Positions 2,116 through 64,000 of a DNA stretch of 64,000 nt are shown here, one piece after another. Position 1 is the first letter of the stretch. The number at the start of each line of letters is the position of its first letter. This DNA is from Haematospirillum sp. H1815 (GTDB lineage Bacteria; Pseudomonadota; Alphaproteobacteria; Rhodospirillales; Rhodospirillaceae). Position numbers and translations under genes: made by a program. The DNA lies in contig NZ_JAAVTA010000004.1 of NCBI RefSeq assembly GCF_012102705.1, positions 62,001 to 126,000 on the forward strand, in the 5' to 3' direction. The notes under the pieces are model-generated. The model saw only the letters and a program-made list of their open reading frames with translations, had not been told where the DNA came from and searched no databases.

Positions 2116-2381
2116 TGATCCCGGCTGATATTGTGTGTGCAAATCTTTTACACTGATAACGTGAAGGGAGCTTCGGAATACACAAGCCCGGGGCTTCCTT
2201 ACTGTCCGTCTCCTCTTGTCCGGAAAGCCATCAGACCAGGCAAAAATTGCCCGGTATTAACCGGTTGTTCACCGTCACAGCATAGCCTCCTGAATACGGG
2301 CGCAGGGGCGATCTGACCCTTGTTTTCAGAAACGTACGTTCTTGGGCACGAACCAAGACGTGGCTTGGCGGGAAGCAGACT
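2116..2381 (+). promoter_or_regulatory. flgE-fliF intergenic region with inverted repeats
   Basis: This gap contains no convincing gene. It holds a CCGGT/ACCGG inverted repeat at 2251-2264, a TTAA-N7-TTCA element at 2257-2271 (one base from the CtrA consensus TTAA-N7-TTAA), and a 10-base palindrome AACGTACGTT at 2331-2340. No sigma-54 element (GG-N10-GC) was found. A fliF operon promoter here is an inference from the position and gap size. Confidence 0.3.
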
Positions 2382-3998
2382 GTGGACTCATTTGTTCAGC
2401 AAATGCGCAATCTGGGGCCGGCGCGCCTGGCCGCTTTGGCTGGCGTCGCAATTGGTCTTCTTGGCTTTCTTGTTTACTTTGCCACACGTTTGGGCACACC
2501 GCCCATGGAACGCCTGTTTGGCGATCTGTCCACAGCTGATGCAAAAGCCATTATTTCCGAGCTGGAAAGCCAGAAAGTCCCTTTTGAGCTACGCAACAAC
2601 GGTACTGAAATTGCGGTACCATCCAGCCAGGTTCTTAAGCTTCGGGTACAACTTGCAGAAAAAACCTCCGCAACAGGTGGGGCCGTTGGTTACGAAGTAT
2701 TCGACCAGATGGACAGTCTGGGTGCCACCAACTTCATGCAGAACGTCAATCAGGTGCGGGCACTGGAAGGTGAGCTGGCACGGACCATCATGGCCATAGA
2801 GGGGGTCAAGGCGGCACGCGTACACCTCGTCATGCCCAAGCGGGAGGTATTTACCCGCGAAACGCAGGATCCATCTGCTGCCGTCTTCATCAAAATGCAC
2901 CGTGGCCGCCTGTCCCGTGAACAAGCCAATGCGGTACAGCGCCTGATCGCCGCCTCGGTGCCGCGCCTGAAACCAGCCCGGATTTCTATCGTGGATGATC
3001 GCGGCACCCTTCTGACACCGGGTATGGAAGATGAAGGGGTCGCCAAGCTCAATACCCAGGAGGAGATGCGCCGCAGGGAAGAAGCACGACTCGCACGCTC
3101 CCTGGAACAGCTTCTGGAAAATGTCGTGGGGCTGGGCAAGATTAGGGCCGAAGTCCGCGCCGATATCGATTTTGACAAAGTTGTGACCAACCAGGAAATC
3201 TACGATCCAGAAGCCCAGGTAGCCAGATCTACCGTAAATCGTCAGGAAAGCAACGAATCATCGGAAAATGATCCTGGCAATGTCAGCGTTGCCAACAATT
3301 TGCCCAATGCACAAACAGCCTCCGGTGGCCCTGCTGCCACATCGCGCGAGAACAGGACCGAGGAAACAACAAACTTCGAGATTTCCCGGAAGGTTACCAA
3401 CCAGGTTAAGGAAGGCCCCCAAATCCGGCGGTTGTCTGTCGCGGTCCTTGTTGACGGCATTTACAGCACGGGGGACAATGGGGAAAGGCAATTCCAACCG
3501 CGTCCAGCCGAAGAAATGGACAAGCTGGCTGCTATTGTGCGCTCGGCCATTGGTTTCAATGCCGCGCGCGGAGATCAGGTTGAACTGGTCAACATGCAGT
3601 TCCAGGCTTTGGACGAGGCTGATCTGGAAGCGCCGTGGATGTTCATGGGTTTCACCAAACCCGAAGTCATGCGTATGGCTGAAAGCTTCGGTGTTGCGAT
3701 TGTTGCGATCCTGATCATCCTGATGGTGGTGCGTCCCTTGGTGGCACGGGCCTTCGAGGGCATGGCGGCAAGCGAGGACAACCAGCTGCTGACCGCAGAT
3801 GGAATGCCCAATGCGCAGCTGTCCGGCCCAGCGCCTATTCCGGAGGAAGAGGACATTTCTGACGAGCTTATTGATATCGACAAGGTTGAGGGTCGCGTGA
3901 AAGCATCATCCCTGCGCAAGATCGGGGAGATTGTCGACAAGCATCCGGAAGAAGCCGTGTCGATCATTCGCAACTGGCTTTACCAGGAAGCCGCATAG
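2382..3998 (+). CDS. fliF: Flagellar MS-ring protein FliF
   Basis: FliF builds the membrane/supramembrane ring that nucleates the basal body and houses the export gate. The 538-residue product has a first membrane segment at about 17-34, the periplasmic YscJ/FliF region (ring-building motifs at about 40-220), a low-complexity Asn/Ser/Glu stretch near 285-325, a second membrane segment at about 434-455, and a cytoplasmic tail ending in the FliG-binding helix (SLRKIGEIVDKHPEEA, then NWLYQEA). The start is GTG with GGGAAG upstream. It is followed 70 bases later by fliG, consistent with the FliF-FliG contact in the rotor and with a shared operon. Confidence 0.95.
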   Translation: MDSFVQQMRNLGPARLAALAGVAIGLLGFLVYFATRLGTPPMERLFGDLSTADAKAIISELESQKVPFELRNNGTEIAVPSSQVLKLRVQLAEKTSATGGAVGYEVFDQMDSLGATNFMQNVNQVRALEGELARTIMAIEGVKAARVHLVMPKREVFTRETQDPSAAVFIKMHRGRLSREQANAVQRLIAASVPRLKPARISIVDDRGTLLTPGMEDEGVAKLNTQEEMRRREEARLARSLEQLLENVVGLGKIRAEVRADIDFDKVVTNQEIYDPEAQVARSTVNRQESNESSENDPGNVSVANNLPNAQTASGGPAATSRENRTEETTNFEISRKVTNQVKEGPQIRRLSVAVLVDGIYSTGDNGERQFQPRPAEEMDKLAAIVRSAIGFNAARGDQVELVNMQFQALDEADLEAPWMFMGFTKPEVMRMAESFGVAIVAILIILMVVRPLVARAFEGMAASEDNQLLTADGMPNAQLSGPAPIPEEEDISDELIDIDKVEGRVKASSLRKIGEIVDKHPEEAVSIIRNWLYQEAA

Positions 3999-18565: not shown

Positions 18566-19477
18566 ATGTTCCAGACCATCAGTCCCTGTCAGGTATGGCG
18601 GATGTTGAGGTTGGCAATGGTTGCGCTAATGCTTGCGCTGCTTCCTGTATCTGGCCCCTGCCTGGCGCAAGAGCCTATAGAAGTGCGGACACCTGCCCCG
18701 GAAAACCCGGATGATCCCCGCTTTGCCTGGTCTGTAGAGGTCCTGAAGATGGCTCTACAAGCGACAGAGCAAGACTTTGGTCCATGGAAATTGGTTCTGG
18801 AATCCAGGGTCTCGGATCGAACACGACTGGAAACGGAGCTTGAAAAGGGAGGGCTGATCAATGTTGCTCTTCTCCCCAGCTGCACGATCAGTGACAAACG
18901 GTTCATGCGGGTCAGTCACGTTGCGGACCGGGGTCTTCTGGGATACCGAGTTGCTATTATACGGGCCGGTGAGCAAAACAAGTTTTCCGGCGTCAAGACC
19001 CTGAATGATCTTGCTGCCTTCCCCGTTGCCTCTGGCCGGAACTGGCATATAAGCAAAATTTTCATAGGTAATGATTTGCCCGTGACTCTGTGGCCTGATC
19101 TGGATGGCCTGTATAATCTCCTGTCTATAGGTCGGGTGGATTATTTGTCCCGTAGCGTCTACGAAGTCATGCGTGAGCTTGATCACTACAAGCAGATATA
19201 CCCGAATCTGGCGATCGAACAAACACTGCTGGTCCGAACCCCGATTGCTATGTGGCTTTACGTGTCAGTCGGTGAAGACAAACTAAAAGAGCGCCTGGAA
19301 TCCGGGATGGGCCGCATCTTGGCTAGTGGAACCCTGAAGACCCGGTTTGACGTATTGTTCCGCAAGGATCTGGAGGCCCTGAACCTGAAGAGCCGTCGCG
19401 TTATTATGCTGAATGATCCAGATGCTCACGGTCCCACACTGGCAATTCCAACCACAGAGTTACTTACGGGTCAATAA
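18566..19477 (+). CDS. Periplasmic solute-binding-like protein
   Basis: The 303-residue product has a signal peptide (hydrophobic core about 14-30, cleavage near SGPCLAQ) and then a fold reminiscent of family 3 solute-binding proteins: ALLPSCTISDKRFMRVSH followed by GYRVAIIR, and later VDYLSRSVYEVMRE. No transporter permease or ATPase gene is nearby, so it may serve as a sensor or have another periplasmic role rather than feed an ABC transporter. Its 3' end overlaps the 3' end of the convergent fliJ by 18 bases. The substrate is unknown. Confidence 0.65.
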   Translation: MFQTISPCQVWRMLRLAMVALMLALLPVSGPCLAQEPIEVRTPAPENPDDPRFAWSVEVLKMALQATEQDFGPWKLVLESRVSDRTRLETELEKGGLINVALLPSCTISDKRFMRVSHVADRGLLGYRVAIIRAGEQNKFSGVKTLNDLAAFPVASGRNWHISKIFIGNDLPVTLWPDLDGLYNLLSIGRVDYLSRSVYEVMRELDHYKQIYPNLAIEQTLLVRTPIAMWLYVSVGEDKLKERLESGMGRILASGTLKTRFDVLFRKDLEALNLKSRRVIMLNDPDAHGPTLAIPTTELLTGQ

Positions 19478-19906
19478 ACTGGTCCGCCCCCCACGACGGC
19501 GATAAATCTCAAGACCAATATCATCTTGCAGGGCACGTTCCTGGCGTTCACGCATGGATGTCTCACGCCCGATACGGTTGTCCTCGGCAATTTCACTGGT
19601 CTTTAGTTCCTTGAATGCCTCGGCCAGCGTGTCACGGGCAGCACTGATCTGCCGGCGAAGGTCTTTCAGGGTTTTTTCAAGAGTCTCACGGCGCTCCTTG
19701 GCCCAGCGCACATAACCACCATAAGTCAGACCGGCACCCAAGGGATCAGCCGCTGCCGCATGACGCTCCTTGATCCCCTGCTCTTCCAGAGCAAGCAGCA
19801 AAGCAATAAGCTGCTCCTCAGAAGCGATGAGACGCGCCAGAAAACGACGTTTCTCATCCACATCCCACTTACGCAGACGCACAAGACCCTTCAGGGTACG
19901 CGACAT
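19460..19906 (-). CDS. fliJ: Flagellar export chaperone FliJ
   Basis: FliJ is the small coiled-coil stalk protein that fits inside the FliI hexamer and links it to the FlhA gate. The 148-residue product is almost wholly helical and rich in Arg, Glu, Leu and Ala (RKWDVDEKRRFLARLIASEE, then RRETLEKTLKDLRRQISAARD). It directly follows fliI on the minus strand (14-base gap) and has AAGAAGGGGGG before its ATG. Function is inferred from shape and neighbourhood, because FliJ sequences diverge strongly. Confidence 0.85.
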   Translation of the reverse strand: MSRTLKGLVRLRKWDVDEKRRFLARLIASEEQLIALLLALEEQGIKERHAAAADPLGAGLTYGGYVRWAKERRETLEKTLKDLRRQISAARDTLAEAFKELKTSEIAEDNRIGRETSMRERQERALQDDIGLEIYRRRGGRTSLLTRK

Positions 19907-19920
19907 AACAGCCCCCCTTC

Positions 19921-21267
19921 TTATCTGCTCTCAGCTGCCATCTTAAACCCCACGGCCTCGGCCAAGGCCGTATACGTTTGGTCCAGCGTTGCGGACTCAG
20001 TCTTTCCCTGACCCAGCACGGCTTCTATACGGGGATACAGGGCTATCGCCTCGTCCACTTCCGCATTGGATCCATCTTTGTAGGCACCAAGGCGTATCAG
20101 TTCACTCATATCCTCATAAACAGACACAATCCGGCGGCAACGGGAAACCAACTGGTTTTGCCATTCCGTGTTGCAGCCAGGCATGGTCCGGGAAACGGAT
20201 CGCAGAATGTTCATGGCAGGATAGCGACCTCTCTCGCTGATGGACCGCTCCAACACAACGTGCCCATCCAGAATACCGCGCACAGCATCCGAGACAGGCT
20301 CGTTATGATCATCTCCCTCAACCAGAACTGTGAACAGACCGGTTATATTGCCTTGCCCGGGACCTCCGGGGCCAGCACGCTCCAGCAACTTGGGCAATTC
20401 AGCAAAAACGGTTGGCGTATACCCCTTGCTGGCGGGTGGCTCTCCCGCAGAAAGGCTGATCTCGCGCTGGGCCATGGCAAAACGGGTCACACTATCCATC
20501 AAACAGAGGACCTCGGCACCCTTGTCCCGGAAATACTCTGCCACCGTCATGGTCAGATAGGCTGCCTGCCGCCGGATCAAAGGGGGCTCATCAGACGTGG
20601 CAATCACAACAACAGAGCGGGCCAAACCTTCAGGCCCCAAATCATCTTCTATGAACTCCCGGGCCTCACGCCCACGCTCTCCTATAAGCCCACAAACAAT
20701 CACATCAGCTGATGAGTACTTGGCCATCATGGACATAACAGAGGATTTCCCCACGCCGGACGCAGCAAAAATCCCCATACGCTGGCCAACGCAGCACGTT
20801 GTGAAGGCATTCAGGCACCGAATACCAAGGTCCAGCTTCCCCCCTACTCTCTGTCGTGCATGAGCCGGTGGCGGCGAGGCCCGGACCGGATAGGCAACGG
20901 GGCCCGACAACAAAGGCCCCAAACTGTCAGCAGGCTCAGCCATAGCGGTTATGACACGCCCCAGCCAGGATTCATGCGGATAGACAGCCGGAGCGGCAGC
21001 CATTACCTCGGCACAAGCCCCCAAACCTATCCCGTCCAAGGTCCCAAAAGGCATCAGCAGAGCCCGACCATCGCGAAAACCGACAATCTCACCAGGCACC
21101 ATGTGCTGGTCCCGCCTTGTGAGCATCACACGGTCACCGACTGAGACAGATGTTTGTATACCACCAACTTCGACCAGAAGCCCCTGCACAGCAACCACGC
21201 GACCAAAAAGTCTGTAATCAGGCAAGCGAGCAATGTCTGTCAGCAGATTGCTTATCGGTATGGGCAT
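19921..21267 (-). CDS. fliI: Flagellum-specific ATPase FliI
   Basis: FliI is the hexameric ATPase of the flagellar export apparatus, related to the F1 beta subunit. The 448-residue product has Walker A ASGVGKSS (169-176), the following GLIGERGREAREF, and CLMDSVTRFAMAQREI as Walker B region. The ATG at 21267 is preferred to a GTG 33 bases upstream because alignment of FliI N-termini begins near this Met and a GGCGGAAAG precedes it. It is divergent from ctrA across a region with a perfect CtrA box, so CtrA control is likely. Confidence 0.95.
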   Translation of the reverse strand: MPIPISNLLTDIARLPDYRLFGRVVAVQGLLVEVGGIQTSVSVGDRVMLTRRDQHMVPGEIVGFRDGRALLMPFGTLDGIGLGACAEVMAAAPAVYPHESWLGRVITAMAEPADSLGPLLSGPVAYPVRASPPPAHARQRVGGKLDLGIRCLNAFTTCCVGQRMGIFAASGVGKSSVMSMMAKYSSADVIVCGLIGERGREAREFIEDDLGPEGLARSVVVIATSDEPPLIRRQAAYLTMTVAEYFRDKGAEVLCLMDSVTRFAMAQREISLSAGEPPASKGYTPTVFAELPKLLERAGPGGPGQGNITGLFTVLVEGDDHNEPVSDAVRGILDGHVVLERSISERGRYPAMNILRSVSRTMPGCNTEWQNQLVSRCRRIVSVYEDMSELIRLGAYKDGSNAEVDEAIALYPRIEAVLGQGKTESATLDQTYTALAEAVGFKMAAESR

Positions 21268-21367
21268 ACGAGGATCTTTCCGCCATGAATCACAAGACAC
21301 TGTGTCCTGTTACACTACGGGCACACAGACACTTGGTGCTTGCACGTAACAATCAATCACTCTATCG

Positions 21368-21382
21368 TTAATGTCGGGTTAA
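21368..21382. promoter_or_regulatory. Perfect CtrA box between fliI and ctrA
   Basis: TTAA at 21368-21371 and TTAA at 21379-21382 are separated by exactly seven bases, matching the CtrA consensus TTAA-N7-TTAA. The site is 62 bases before ctrA and 101 bases before fliI. It suggests autoregulation of ctrA and/or control of fliI-fliJ by CtrA. Confidence 0.7.
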
Positions 21383-21443
21383 TCGGATGTCCGGATTCAA
21401 AGAACAGGGATCAAGACATCTGCGCAGAGCATGAGGGTGCCCC

Positions 21444-22169
21444 ATGCGCGTTCTTGTCGTAGAAGACGATACAGCCACCCGGCAGAGTATCGAACTCATG
21501 CTTCGTAAAGAGCAGTGGGTTGTTGATTCCACCAACTTGGGCGAAGATGGTCTGGAAATCGGCAAGCTCTACGACTATGACATCATCTTGCTCGACTTGG
21601 TCCTCCCGGACATGGACGGAATGGATGTCATCCGGCAGTTGCGAGCTGCGCGGATTGAAACACCCGTCCTGATCCTGTCCGGCCTTGACGAACCAGACAG
21701 AAAAGTCCGCGGGCTTGGCAGCGGTGCCGATGACTATTTGACAAAGCCATTCGACCGCTCAGAACTGATCGCGCGCATTCAGGCAATCGTGCGACGCTCA
21801 AAGGGTCACTCCCAGTCCGTTGTTCGAACCGGACGCCTGTGCGTCAATCTGGATGCCCATACCGTCACGATCGACAGCAATCCCGTACACCTGACGGTCA
21901 AGGAATACGGTATTCTTGAGCTTCTGGCTCTCCGCAAGGGCACGACACTCACCAAGGACCAATTTCTCAGCCATCTTTACAATGGCATTGATGAACCAGA
22001 GCTGAAAATTATCGATGTTTTCATCTGCAAACTGCGTAAAAAACTTGCCGTAGCATCCGACGGGGACAATTACATCGAAACAGTCTGGGGACGTGGCTAT
22101 GTGCTGCGCGACCCATCCGCTGCCGCCGATACAGCAGCGTCTCAGACATCCGATGCTGTATCGGCCTAA
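21444..22169 (+). CDS. ctrA: Cell-cycle and motility response regulator CtrA
   Basis: CtrA is an OmpR-type response regulator; in Rhodospirillales it mainly controls motility, chemotaxis and related genes. The 241-residue product has a receiver (1-120) with E7/D8/D9 and the phospho-acceptor D51 in [12 protein letters not shown], and a winged-helix output domain (about 125-225). The N-terminus ([13 protein letters not shown]) and [20 protein letters not shown] match CtrA rather than other OmpR-family members. The last residues after VLRDP are Ala/Ser/Thr-rich; the C-terminal proteolysis signal of Caulobacter CtrA (a final AA) is not exact here (ends SA). A CtrA box lies upstream. Confidence 0.95.
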
Positions 22170-60745: not shown

Positions 60746-63580
60746 TTATGCCGCAGCCGCACCAAGAATCTGTCCCAAAGTATTAATCAGGGCATCCCGG
60801 TCAAACTTGGCAACATAATCGTCAAATCCTACTTCGCGGCCACGCTCAAGATCACGCTCTGTTGCCCGCGAACTCAGGGCAATCAGTGGAATTGTCGCGA
60901 ACCGCTCATCCTTGCGCAAGGCCTCCGCAAATTCAAAGCCATTCATGCCCGGCATTTCGATATCCGAAACAACGGCATCAAAGCGTGCACCTGAATTCAG
61001 GATAGCCATCGCTTTTTCGGCGCTGTCGACGGTTGTAACATCGTAACCCGACACCGACAGAAGTGGCGTCAAAAGATTGCGGAAGAACGGACTGTCATCA
61101 ACCAACAACACAGAAGGCCCACCAGCGACACGATCCTGACTGGATGGAAGCTGCGGCTTGCCGAACCAGTCACCAAAGGCCCGTGTCAGATAGTAACCGG
61201 TATCGATCACATCTGTTGCACGATCACCGATAATGGCTGTCCCAATGATGCCTTGAGTTTCGGCCTTCAGTTCGACCTTCAGGCGATCCTCGACGATGTC
61301 GACAATCTCGTCCACCATCAAGCCCATGGAACGATCGCGATCCGAGAAAACAAGAATAGGCTGGCGCCCTTCTTTCCGGAACTCAATGCCATCGGTAACC
61401 GTGACCAATGGCATCAGTTGCCCGCGATACTGCACAACGGGCTTGCCAAAGGAGTATTCGACCTTTTCAAGCTCAATCTCTTCCAACCTGGCAACCAGCG
61501 CCAGGGGAACAGCTTTCAATTCGGCTGTTGCTGCGCGGAAGATAAGCAAGCTGGTCATATCATCCACACGGGCACCCTCGTAGGCAGATGCCCCCTCACC
61601 ACCAGCAGAATTCATCGTTACTTCGCCGGTTGCAGTGGCAATACCGTTCGGATCCAGGATCATGATAACAGACCCGTCCCCAAGGATCGTATTCCCGGAG
61701 AACATGGAAATATGGCGGAGGATGGGAGCAACCGGCTTGACGACGATTTCTTCGGTATCAAACACGCGGTCGACAATAATCCCGAAGGTATAGGTCCCGA
61801 CTTGGGTAACAACAATAAACGTTTCGTTCAGGTCGTTGTCCACATCCGCCAGACGTGCGGCAAGGTCATGGATATCGTCCTGACGCAGCTTGAGTAGATT
61901 ACCCAGGGAGACAAGAGGCAGCAAACGATCACGCAACCGCAGCACAGGTGCACGGTTGATCTTTTCGATCTTGGTTTCGGAATTCGCTGTCACCCGGACC
62001 AGTTCCAGCACACTGATCTGGGGAATGGCAAAACGTTCTGCCGCACATTCCACAATCAGGGCCGAGACGATCGCAAGGGTCAGCGGGATCTTGATGGTAA
62101 ACGTCGTGCCCTTTCCATAGATGGTCTTGAGCTCGATGGTTCCACCAATCTTTTCGATATTGGTGCGAACCACGTCCATACCAACACCACGGCCCGACAC
62201 GCTGGTAATCTTCTCGGCCGTAGAGAATCCCGCCTTGAAGATAAACTGCGCAATCTGCTGTTCGTTCATCGAGTCGAGATCGGCTTCGGAAGCCAGGCCA
62301 TTCGCAATAGCCTTCTCCCGGATACGGTTGATATTCAGCCCGCGACCGTCATCAGAAATCTCGATAATGATGTGCCCACCTTCGTGGAACGCATTCAGCT
62401 TGATAATCCCGACTTCGCTCTTCCCGGCGTTACGGCGGCCTTCGGTATCTTCCAACCCATGGTCTGCGGAGTTGCGAACCATGTGGGTCAAAGGATCCTT
62501 GATCAGCTCCAGAACCTGGCGGTCGAGTTCGGTTTCAGCACCATACATCTGGAGATCGATCTTCTTGCCGGTTTCAATCCCCAGATCGCGAACAATACGA
62601 GGCAATTTTGACCAAGCATTACCGATAGGCTGCATCCTGGTCTTCATCACGCCTTCCTGCAAATCAGACGTAATGTGAGACAACCGCTGCAGCGGAGCTG
62701 CAAACTCGCTATCATCGCGGCCACGAATCATCTGCAGAAGTTGGTTACGTGTGAGAACCAGCTCGGAAACCAAGGTCATCAGATTTTCAAGCAGGTCCAC
62801 GTTGACGCGGATAGACTGTGCCGCAATAGAGTTTTCACCACCGCCACCGCCGCCACCCCCTGCGGGGGCTGCAGGAGCAGCAGCCTTGGCCGACTCCTTC
62901 GGCGGCTCTTTTGCTGCTGCGGGAGGCTTGGCGGCTGCAGGCTTCTCAGCCTCAGGTGGGGCAGCAGCAGGCTCTTCGGCAGCCGGGGCAGGCTTGGCAG
63001 CCGCAGCTTCCTTCGCACGCTCGGCGGCTAGCTGGGCATCAAGCTCTGCCTGACTGGTTGCTTTCTTGCCTTGGGATACAGCCTGCTGGACCTCAGCCAG
63101 CAATTCTGCTGCCACCGGAAATGCTTCTGCTGCTGGAGGTGCTTCAGGGGCAGAAGGAGGCGGTGGGGGAGCCGCAGCAGCCGGAGCACCGCCGCCCGAG
63201 GTATTCCCCTCGGCCATGGCGTTCAGCTGGTCGATCAGATCGCGGTCATTCCCTTCGGGTTCTGTCTCGTTGGCTTCCAGATGTCCCAGAAGTTCCTTGA
63301 TTCGGTCGATAGAGGCCAAAATAAGGGTGACAGCCTCGGCCGTGACAGTCAGCTCACCATCACGGAACTTGCCCAGAACGTTCTCCCCCGAATGGGCCAA
63401 CGACTCAAGGCGTGGCAATCCAAGGAACCCGCACGTGCCTTTTATGGTGTGAACCAACCGGAAGATATTGGACAAGATGCCCGTATCGTTGGGATTCTGC
63501 TCCAGATTCACCAACTCAATATCAAGCGTGGCAAGGCTTTCCGCTGTTTCGGTCAGGAATTCACTGAGCAGGTCGTCCAT
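60746..63580 (-). CDS. cheA: Hybrid chemotaxis histidine kinase CheA with receiver
   Basis: CheA phosphorylates CheY and CheB in response to chemoreceptors. The 944-residue product has an Hpt domain with phospho-His 44 (RLVHTIKGTCGFLGL), a long Ala/Pro/Glu linker (about 125-260), dimerisation and ATPase domains (DHGLE, DDGRGLN, GRGVGMDVV), a CheW-like domain (FAIPQISVLELV), a second CheW-like domain (SLLIFRAATAELKAVPLALVAR), and a C-terminal receiver (VLLVDDSPFFRNLL, SDIEMPGMNGFEFAE). The Met at 63580 has GGGGAG six bases upstream; an earlier in-frame start adds unrelated residues. It is first in cheA-cheY-cheB-cheR. Confidence 0.96.
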   Translation of the reverse strand: MDDLLSEFLTETAESLATLDIELVNLEQNPNDTGILSNIFRLVHTIKGTCGFLGLPRLESLAHSGENVLGKFRDGELTVTAEAVTLILASIDRIKELLGHLEANETEPEGNDRDLIDQLNAMAEGNTSGGGAPAAAAPPPPPSAPEAPPAAEAFPVAAELLAEVQQAVSQGKKATSQAELDAQLAAERAKEAAAAKPAPAAEEPAAAPPEAEKPAAAKPPAAAKEPPKESAKAAAPAAPAGGGGGGGGENSIAAQSIRVNVDLLENLMTLVSELVLTRNQLLQMIRGRDDSEFAAPLQRLSHITSDLQEGVMKTRMQPIGNAWSKLPRIVRDLGIETGKKIDLQMYGAETELDRQVLELIKDPLTHMVRNSADHGLEDTEGRRNAGKSEVGIIKLNAFHEGGHIIIEISDDGRGLNINRIREKAIANGLASEADLDSMNEQQIAQFIFKAGFSTAEKITSVSGRGVGMDVVRTNIEKIGGTIELKTIYGKGTTFTIKIPLTLAIVSALIVECAAERFAIPQISVLELVRVTANSETKIEKINRAPVLRLRDRLLPLVSLGNLLKLRQDDIHDLAARLADVDNDLNETFIVVTQVGTYTFGIIVDRVFDTEEIVVKPVAPILRHISMFSGNTILGDGSVIMILDPNGIATATGEVTMNSAGGEGASAYEGARVDDMTSLLIFRAATAELKAVPLALVARLEEIELEKVEYSFGKPVVQYRGQLMPLVTVTDGIEFRKEGRQPILVFSDRDRSMGLMVDEIVDIVEDRLKVELKAETQGIIGTAIIGDRATDVIDTGYYLTRAFGDWFGKPQLPSSQDRVAGGPSVLLVDDSPFFRNLLTPLLSVSGYDVTTVDSAEKAMAILNSGARFDAVVSDIEMPGMNGFEFAEALRKDERFATIPLIALSSRATERDLERGREVGFDDYVAKFDRDALINTLGQILGAAAA

Positions 63581-63795
63581 TGGTATCTCCCCAATGCTCT
63601 TCCACGAGAGCGCCGAGAACGAAGCCGTCAAAAACCACCATATCCGGCGGTGCGGCGCACAACGCCCCTCCCTGACCGGATAATCCGGCACCCAGAACGC
63701 TTTTGTAACACGGAAAAAACGGGACCAGAAGGGTTCTTGCTGTCCATTGCCACAGCGCCATCAAATGGAAAACCTCAGGATTACAAGAAACATTA

Positions 63796-64000
63796 TTATA
63801 AACGCATTGGTGTTGCGCAAAGGGTTATTTCCTGCTTTGAAAAGGCGTGGGACAGGCACCATCCAGCCCGCATGGCAAGCTGATGAAGCAGGATAACCGG
63901 GGCATTGCGTGGTCCGGGAACAACGGGCTGCCCAGACAAAAGATGGTCAAGATCCGGGATAAGGGTAACCTGTGTCCCTGTAGCCGCAACCACAACGCCT
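63796..64000 (-). CDS. Partial unknown gene at right edge
   Basis: The minus-strand frame is open from the window edge to a TAA at 63796, giving about 68 visible C-terminal residues (VVVAATGTQVTLIPDLDHLL, then PVVPGPRNAPVILLHQLA). I do not recognise the family. A GTG at 63993 could also start a 65-residue protein, but an extension beyond the window is more likely. Confidence 0.35.
   Translation of the reverse strand, partial: GVVVAATGTQVTLIPDLDHLLSGQPVVPGPRNAPVILLHQLAMRAGWCLSHAFSKQEITLCATPMRL

Follow-up and report, generated by a model that had tools for sequence, protein, structure and literature searches.

A putative CtrA operator fused to the −10 element of the ctrA promoter in Haematospirillum and other Rhodospirillales

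The window analyzed here is a 64,000-nucleotide stretch of the Haematospirillum sp. H1815 genome, in which the gene for the response regulator CtrA and the flagellar export genes fliI-fliJ are divergent. The region between them contains TTAATGTCGGGTTAA at 21368–21382, an exact TTAA-N7-TTAA, which is the full CtrA binding motif and the only exact match in the window. From comparison with related sequences, the preferred reading of the box is an autorepression operator for CtrA and not a −35 activator site; it is probably an operator within the ctrA promoter through which CtrA would exert negative feedback on its own level. The initial annotation had reported both the exact motif and its location between ctrA and the divergent fliI-fliJ genes, and the gene calls and coordinates bear out the two statements. 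The genes and the box are as follows:

19460–19906, reverse strand: fliJ-like export chaperone gene (TIGR02473, E 3e-7, below the curated cut-off), at the expected place after fliI
19921–21267, reverse strand: fliI, flagellar export ATPase, clade 3 (NCBIfam TIGR03498, 635 bits against a cut-off of 587), with a frame open to a GTG at 21300
21368–21382, no strand assigned: CtrA box TTAATGTCGGGTTAA, proposed ctrA autorepression operator, extending from about −7 to +8 relative to the predicted ctrA start and conserved in the six members sampled from five genera
21444–22169, forward strand: ctrA, response regulator CtrA, 241 aa (NCBIfam NF045991, 394 bits against a cut-off of 350; Pfam receiver and DNA-binding domains)

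The ctrA-fliI intergenic region probably spans 21268–21443, because the ATG at 21267 is a likelier fliI start than the GTG at 21300. A 303-aa protein encoded at 18566–19477, between a TonB-type cluster and fliJ, has no Pfam or NCBIfam match.

Shuffles of the window gave an expectation of 0.29 exact N7 boxes, and 23 of 100 shuffles held at least one, so that the window count alone is not significant. The 2.27 Mb genome holds exact N7 boxes at 5 places and N6 boxes at 5 places, and TTAA-Nk-TTAA occurs 52 times in total over spacings N2–N14, about 4 per spacing; compared with these spacings, there is no genome-wide excess of exact boxes at spacing 6 or 7. Genome-wide counts, being at chance level, were uninformative and were set aside as a measure of the box. 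The box alone is therefore not convincing, and the case rests on comparison. For a given region of about 176 bases, the chance of an N7 box is, by our arithmetic, about 4 × 176 / 2.27e6 = 3e-4.

Alignment of the upstream regions of relatives revealed a ctrA promoter, TTGCAC-N17-TATCGT, at 21340–21368. A generic promoter scan of 21200–21500 gave no match, because the −35/−10 pair misses the scan threshold, and the promoter was obtained by comparison instead. Its elements are as follows:

21340–21345, forward strand: −35 element TTGCAC, of the order-wide TTG-N20-TAnnRT pattern with a 17-base spacer
21363–21368, forward strand: −10 element TATCGT, sharing its final T with the start of the CtrA box
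21375, forward strand: predicted ctrA transcription start, 7 bases past the −10 and inside the box, placed from the position of the −10
21394–21398, forward strand: GATTC, a CcrM (GANTC) methylation motif at about +20, and not at the −29 position of Caulobacter P1

The CtrA motif is thus found over the −10 and predicted start of a sigma-70-type promoter recognized by its conservation, which is the arrangement of a CtrA-repressed promoter. The box lies 76 bases from the ctrA ATG.

We compared 108 ctrA upstream regions of the order, from 26 families and 74 genera. The comparison revealed that (i) the sigma-70-type pattern TTG-N20-TAnnRT (17-base spacer) occurs in 65 of the 108 regions, against 2.3 in shuffles and 2 on the reverse strand, and other −35/−10 spacings near 17 occur in 0–6 regions each (the distant spacer 23 in 17); (ii) in 47 of the 108 regions, a TTAA has its first T at the final position of the −10, against 0.12 in shuffles with a maximum of 1, and this fusion is found in 19 of the 26 families and 39 of the 74 genera; (iii) a second TTAA follows one helical turn further, N6 boxes being present in 47 of the 108 regions against 0.55 expected; and (iv) the aligned profile of the 65 promoters has a conserved −35, a conserved −10, and both half-sites. 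The 108 regions are related, so the shuffle expectations overstate their independence, and the spread of the fusion over 19 families limits this overstatement. Neither the promoter pattern nor an exact box was found in 24 of the 108 order members, including 11 of the 35 sampled regions of the window's own family. One subgroup of that family (loci L027, L030, L032, L034, and L115) is without the promoter-operator arrangement, and its ctrA upstream regions have in common other stretches that look conserved (TAACAT... and GGGGCAC).

Boxes are also enriched upstream of ctrA in the class outside the order: among 67 such regions, 18 hold N6 boxes and 20 hold N7 boxes, with about 1.6 expected. The fused promoter was found in only 1 of the 67, and the fusion of the box to the −10 is therefore largely a feature of this order.

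The spacing of the half-sites sets the window's clade apart within the order. N7 boxes occur in 10 of the 108 order regions, N6 being usual, and the N7 boxes fused to the −10 are confined, among these regions, to the nearest clade of the window (genomes G000, G001, G004, G011, G017, and G029; five genera). The initial annotation had left its reading to stand or fall with conservation of the box in close relatives; an exact N7 box occupies the same place in the promoter in all six sampled clade members. In these six, the box is anywhere from 65 to 184 bases away from the ctrA ATG, while its place on the promoter is kept. The six form one side of a branch in the CtrA tree (SH-aLRT 97). Among CtrA residues that could account for the 7-base spacing, a few clade-specific changes were found, none of which could be tied to DNA reading. 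Rhodospirillum rubrum ctrA (locus L022, genome G027) carries TATCGTTAATGGAGGTTAAC, the same arrangement with 6-base spacing.

The order-wide conservation of the box together with the promoter strongly supports the predicted autoregulation of ctrA through the box, which the initial annotation had also proposed. With the box on the −10 and the start site and not on the −35, this autoregulation is probably negative. RNA polymerase would start ctrA from TTGCAC-N17-TATCGT. A CtrA~P dimer would bind TTAA-N7-TTAA, whose first half-site overlaps the −10 with its first base and whose second lies at about +5 to +8; once bound, the dimer would sit over both the melting region and the start site. Initiation would thereby be blocked, giving negative feedback on the CtrA level. 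In Caulobacter, a CtrA site that covers the −10 is repressive, as at ctrA P1 and P3, and one near the −35 is activating (PMC4287350). In Sinorhizobium meliloti, by contrast, CtrA bound to the promoters of its gene acts only weakly and in a mildly positive direction (PMC4433202), so the sign cannot be read from promoter occupancy.

Caulobacter crescentus ctrA P1 and P3 are the closest counterparts in that they likewise have a TTAA motif over the −10 upstream of ctrA, and GcrA, CcrM, and ChpT have counterparts here too. The geometry differs. P1 has a single half-site at −14 and a GANTC at about −29, and P3 has a full box at −14 (PMC4287350), whereas the window has a full box whose 5′ base is at about −7, with its GANTC at about +20. 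A P1-type GANTC at about −29 is absent from the spacer of the window promoter; 10 of the 65 order promoters carry a GANTC at −29/−28, the Caulobacter P1 position.

Three other readings of the box were weighed against autorepression. One is that the TTAA pair arose by chance or is purely a promoter feature, such as an extended −10 or discriminator, that CtrA does not read. The chance-level counts in the genome agree with it, as do some f22 members that keep TATGGTTAC without the full TTAA. A promoter, however, hardly explains a second TTAA at a fixed distance of one turn; TATGGTTAAC includes the reverse complement of the known CtrA half-site TTAACCAT; and the enrichment of boxes upstream of ctrA extends beyond the order, to regions where the promoter is nearly absent. 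We regard this reading as very improbable. Somewhat less improbable, but still doubtful, is a relay as in Caulobacter, in which the box would repress an upstream ctrA promoter (start at about 21375) and activate a downstream one (about 21405). The Caulobacter full box, at −39 of P2 and −14 of P3, is thought to activate one of these promoters while repressing the other (PMC4287350); the CtrA-activated P2, with its full motif near −39, resembles the arrangement here in having a full or near-full box upstream of ctrA, and the 76 bases between the window box and the ATG give space for a second promoter. Against the relay, the aligned profile of the 65 promoters has no conserved element downstream of the box and hence none that would mark an activated promoter like P2. 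Moreover, 28 of the 47 fused cases have the box no more than 41 bases from the ATG, which is too close for an activated promoter further downstream, as its start, about 39 bases past the box, would be at or inside the gene.

The remaining alternative, the likeliest of the three and still an unlikely one, gives the box a double duty: CtrA would repress ctrA and also activate fliI-fliJ, the box substituting for a −35 with a start near 21343. The roughly 100 bases between the box and fliI permit this. The divergent ctrA-fliI order is widespread, with 89 intergenic regions of the order and 34 from elsewhere in the class qualifying and a divergent fliI in 39 of the 67 class-level upstream regions, and flagellar genes are under CtrA in all orders studied (PMC8116508). 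There is also precedent in the Rhodobacter sphaeroides fla2 genes (fliF2-fliL2 and flgB2-fliI2), where CtrA boxes, some of them 6-base spaced, likewise lie in a divergent region beside fliI and one CtrA site serves the divergent promoters fliF2p and fliL2p (PMC6180460). In that system, however, CtrA activates flagellar genes on both sides, whereas here one side is ctrA and the box is on its −10. The stretch where a fliI −10 would be presumed (about −17 to −25 on the ctrA strand) is almost unconserved in the 65 order promoters, and the six N7 members have no common fliI-oriented −10 at a fixed distance from the box; CtrA-type −10s are weak, which makes their absence moderate evidence at most. 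Many order members have the box 29–41 bases from ctrA, at a long distance from fliI. CtrA control of fliI-fliJ from the box at 21368, the other half of the regulation proposed in the initial annotation, is thus possible but unsupported. Some fliI-ctrA regions hold other boxes.

On the motility side, a box upstream of fliF is predicted to be a better candidate for a link to CtrA than the ctrA-fliI box. The features concerned are as follows:

2257–2272, forward strand: CtrA-like box TTAACCGGTTGTTCAC upstream of fliF, of activator-type geometry with its 5′ base at about −36
2281–2286, forward strand: candidate fliF −10 CATAGC, downstream of the 2257 box, identified by eye
2382–3998, forward strand: fliF, flagellar MS-ring protein (Pfam PF01514 and PF08345), the first gene after the 2257 box

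This box reads TTAAC-N6-TTCA in five of six relatives and TTAAC-N6-TTTA in the sixth. CATAG is found at the same distance past the box in G001, G011, and G029, and has diverged in the other three.

The autorepression reading may extend beyond the window's clade. We rate at about even chances the proposal that a negative CtrA operator fused to the −10 is old and order-wide in early-branching Rhodospirillales, including R. rubrum, with N6 as the usual spacing and a single re-spacing to 7 in the window's clade. When Rhodospirillum and Magnetospirillum were surveyed in 2010 with a matrix built on Caulobacter, no clear CtrA feedback, whether positive or negative, was reported for cell-cycle factors (PMC2877005); we infer that the R. 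rubrum arrangement could have escaped a matrix 16 bases long in which the spacing is fixed at 7. Our literature search, which covered few of the subscription papers, found no paper on Rhodospirillales ctrA promoters that describes this arrangement. The Rhodospirillales examined to date can do without CtrA, whose ancestral role is believed to lie in motility (PMC8116508). The arrangement bears on the question of whether feedback of CtrA on ctrA is older than its takeover of the cell cycle, and the presence of an operator fused to the promoter core in members of 19 families suggests that simple negative feedback is common in this order.

The genome also encodes ChpT, GcrA, and a CcrM-like methylase. 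GcrA (PF07750) and the CcrM-like protein (PF18755) are over their cut-offs, and the latter, a RAMA-domain protein, has a DPPY methylase motif. The chpT gene crosses the window end:

63850–64000, reverse strand: part of chpT, the phosphotransferase feeding CtrA, which extends past the window end (PF10090 at G000:C19:125850-126197, E 2.3e-15)

It adjoins a CheA-like gene (60746–63691); ctrA is on the same contig, about 42 kb away.
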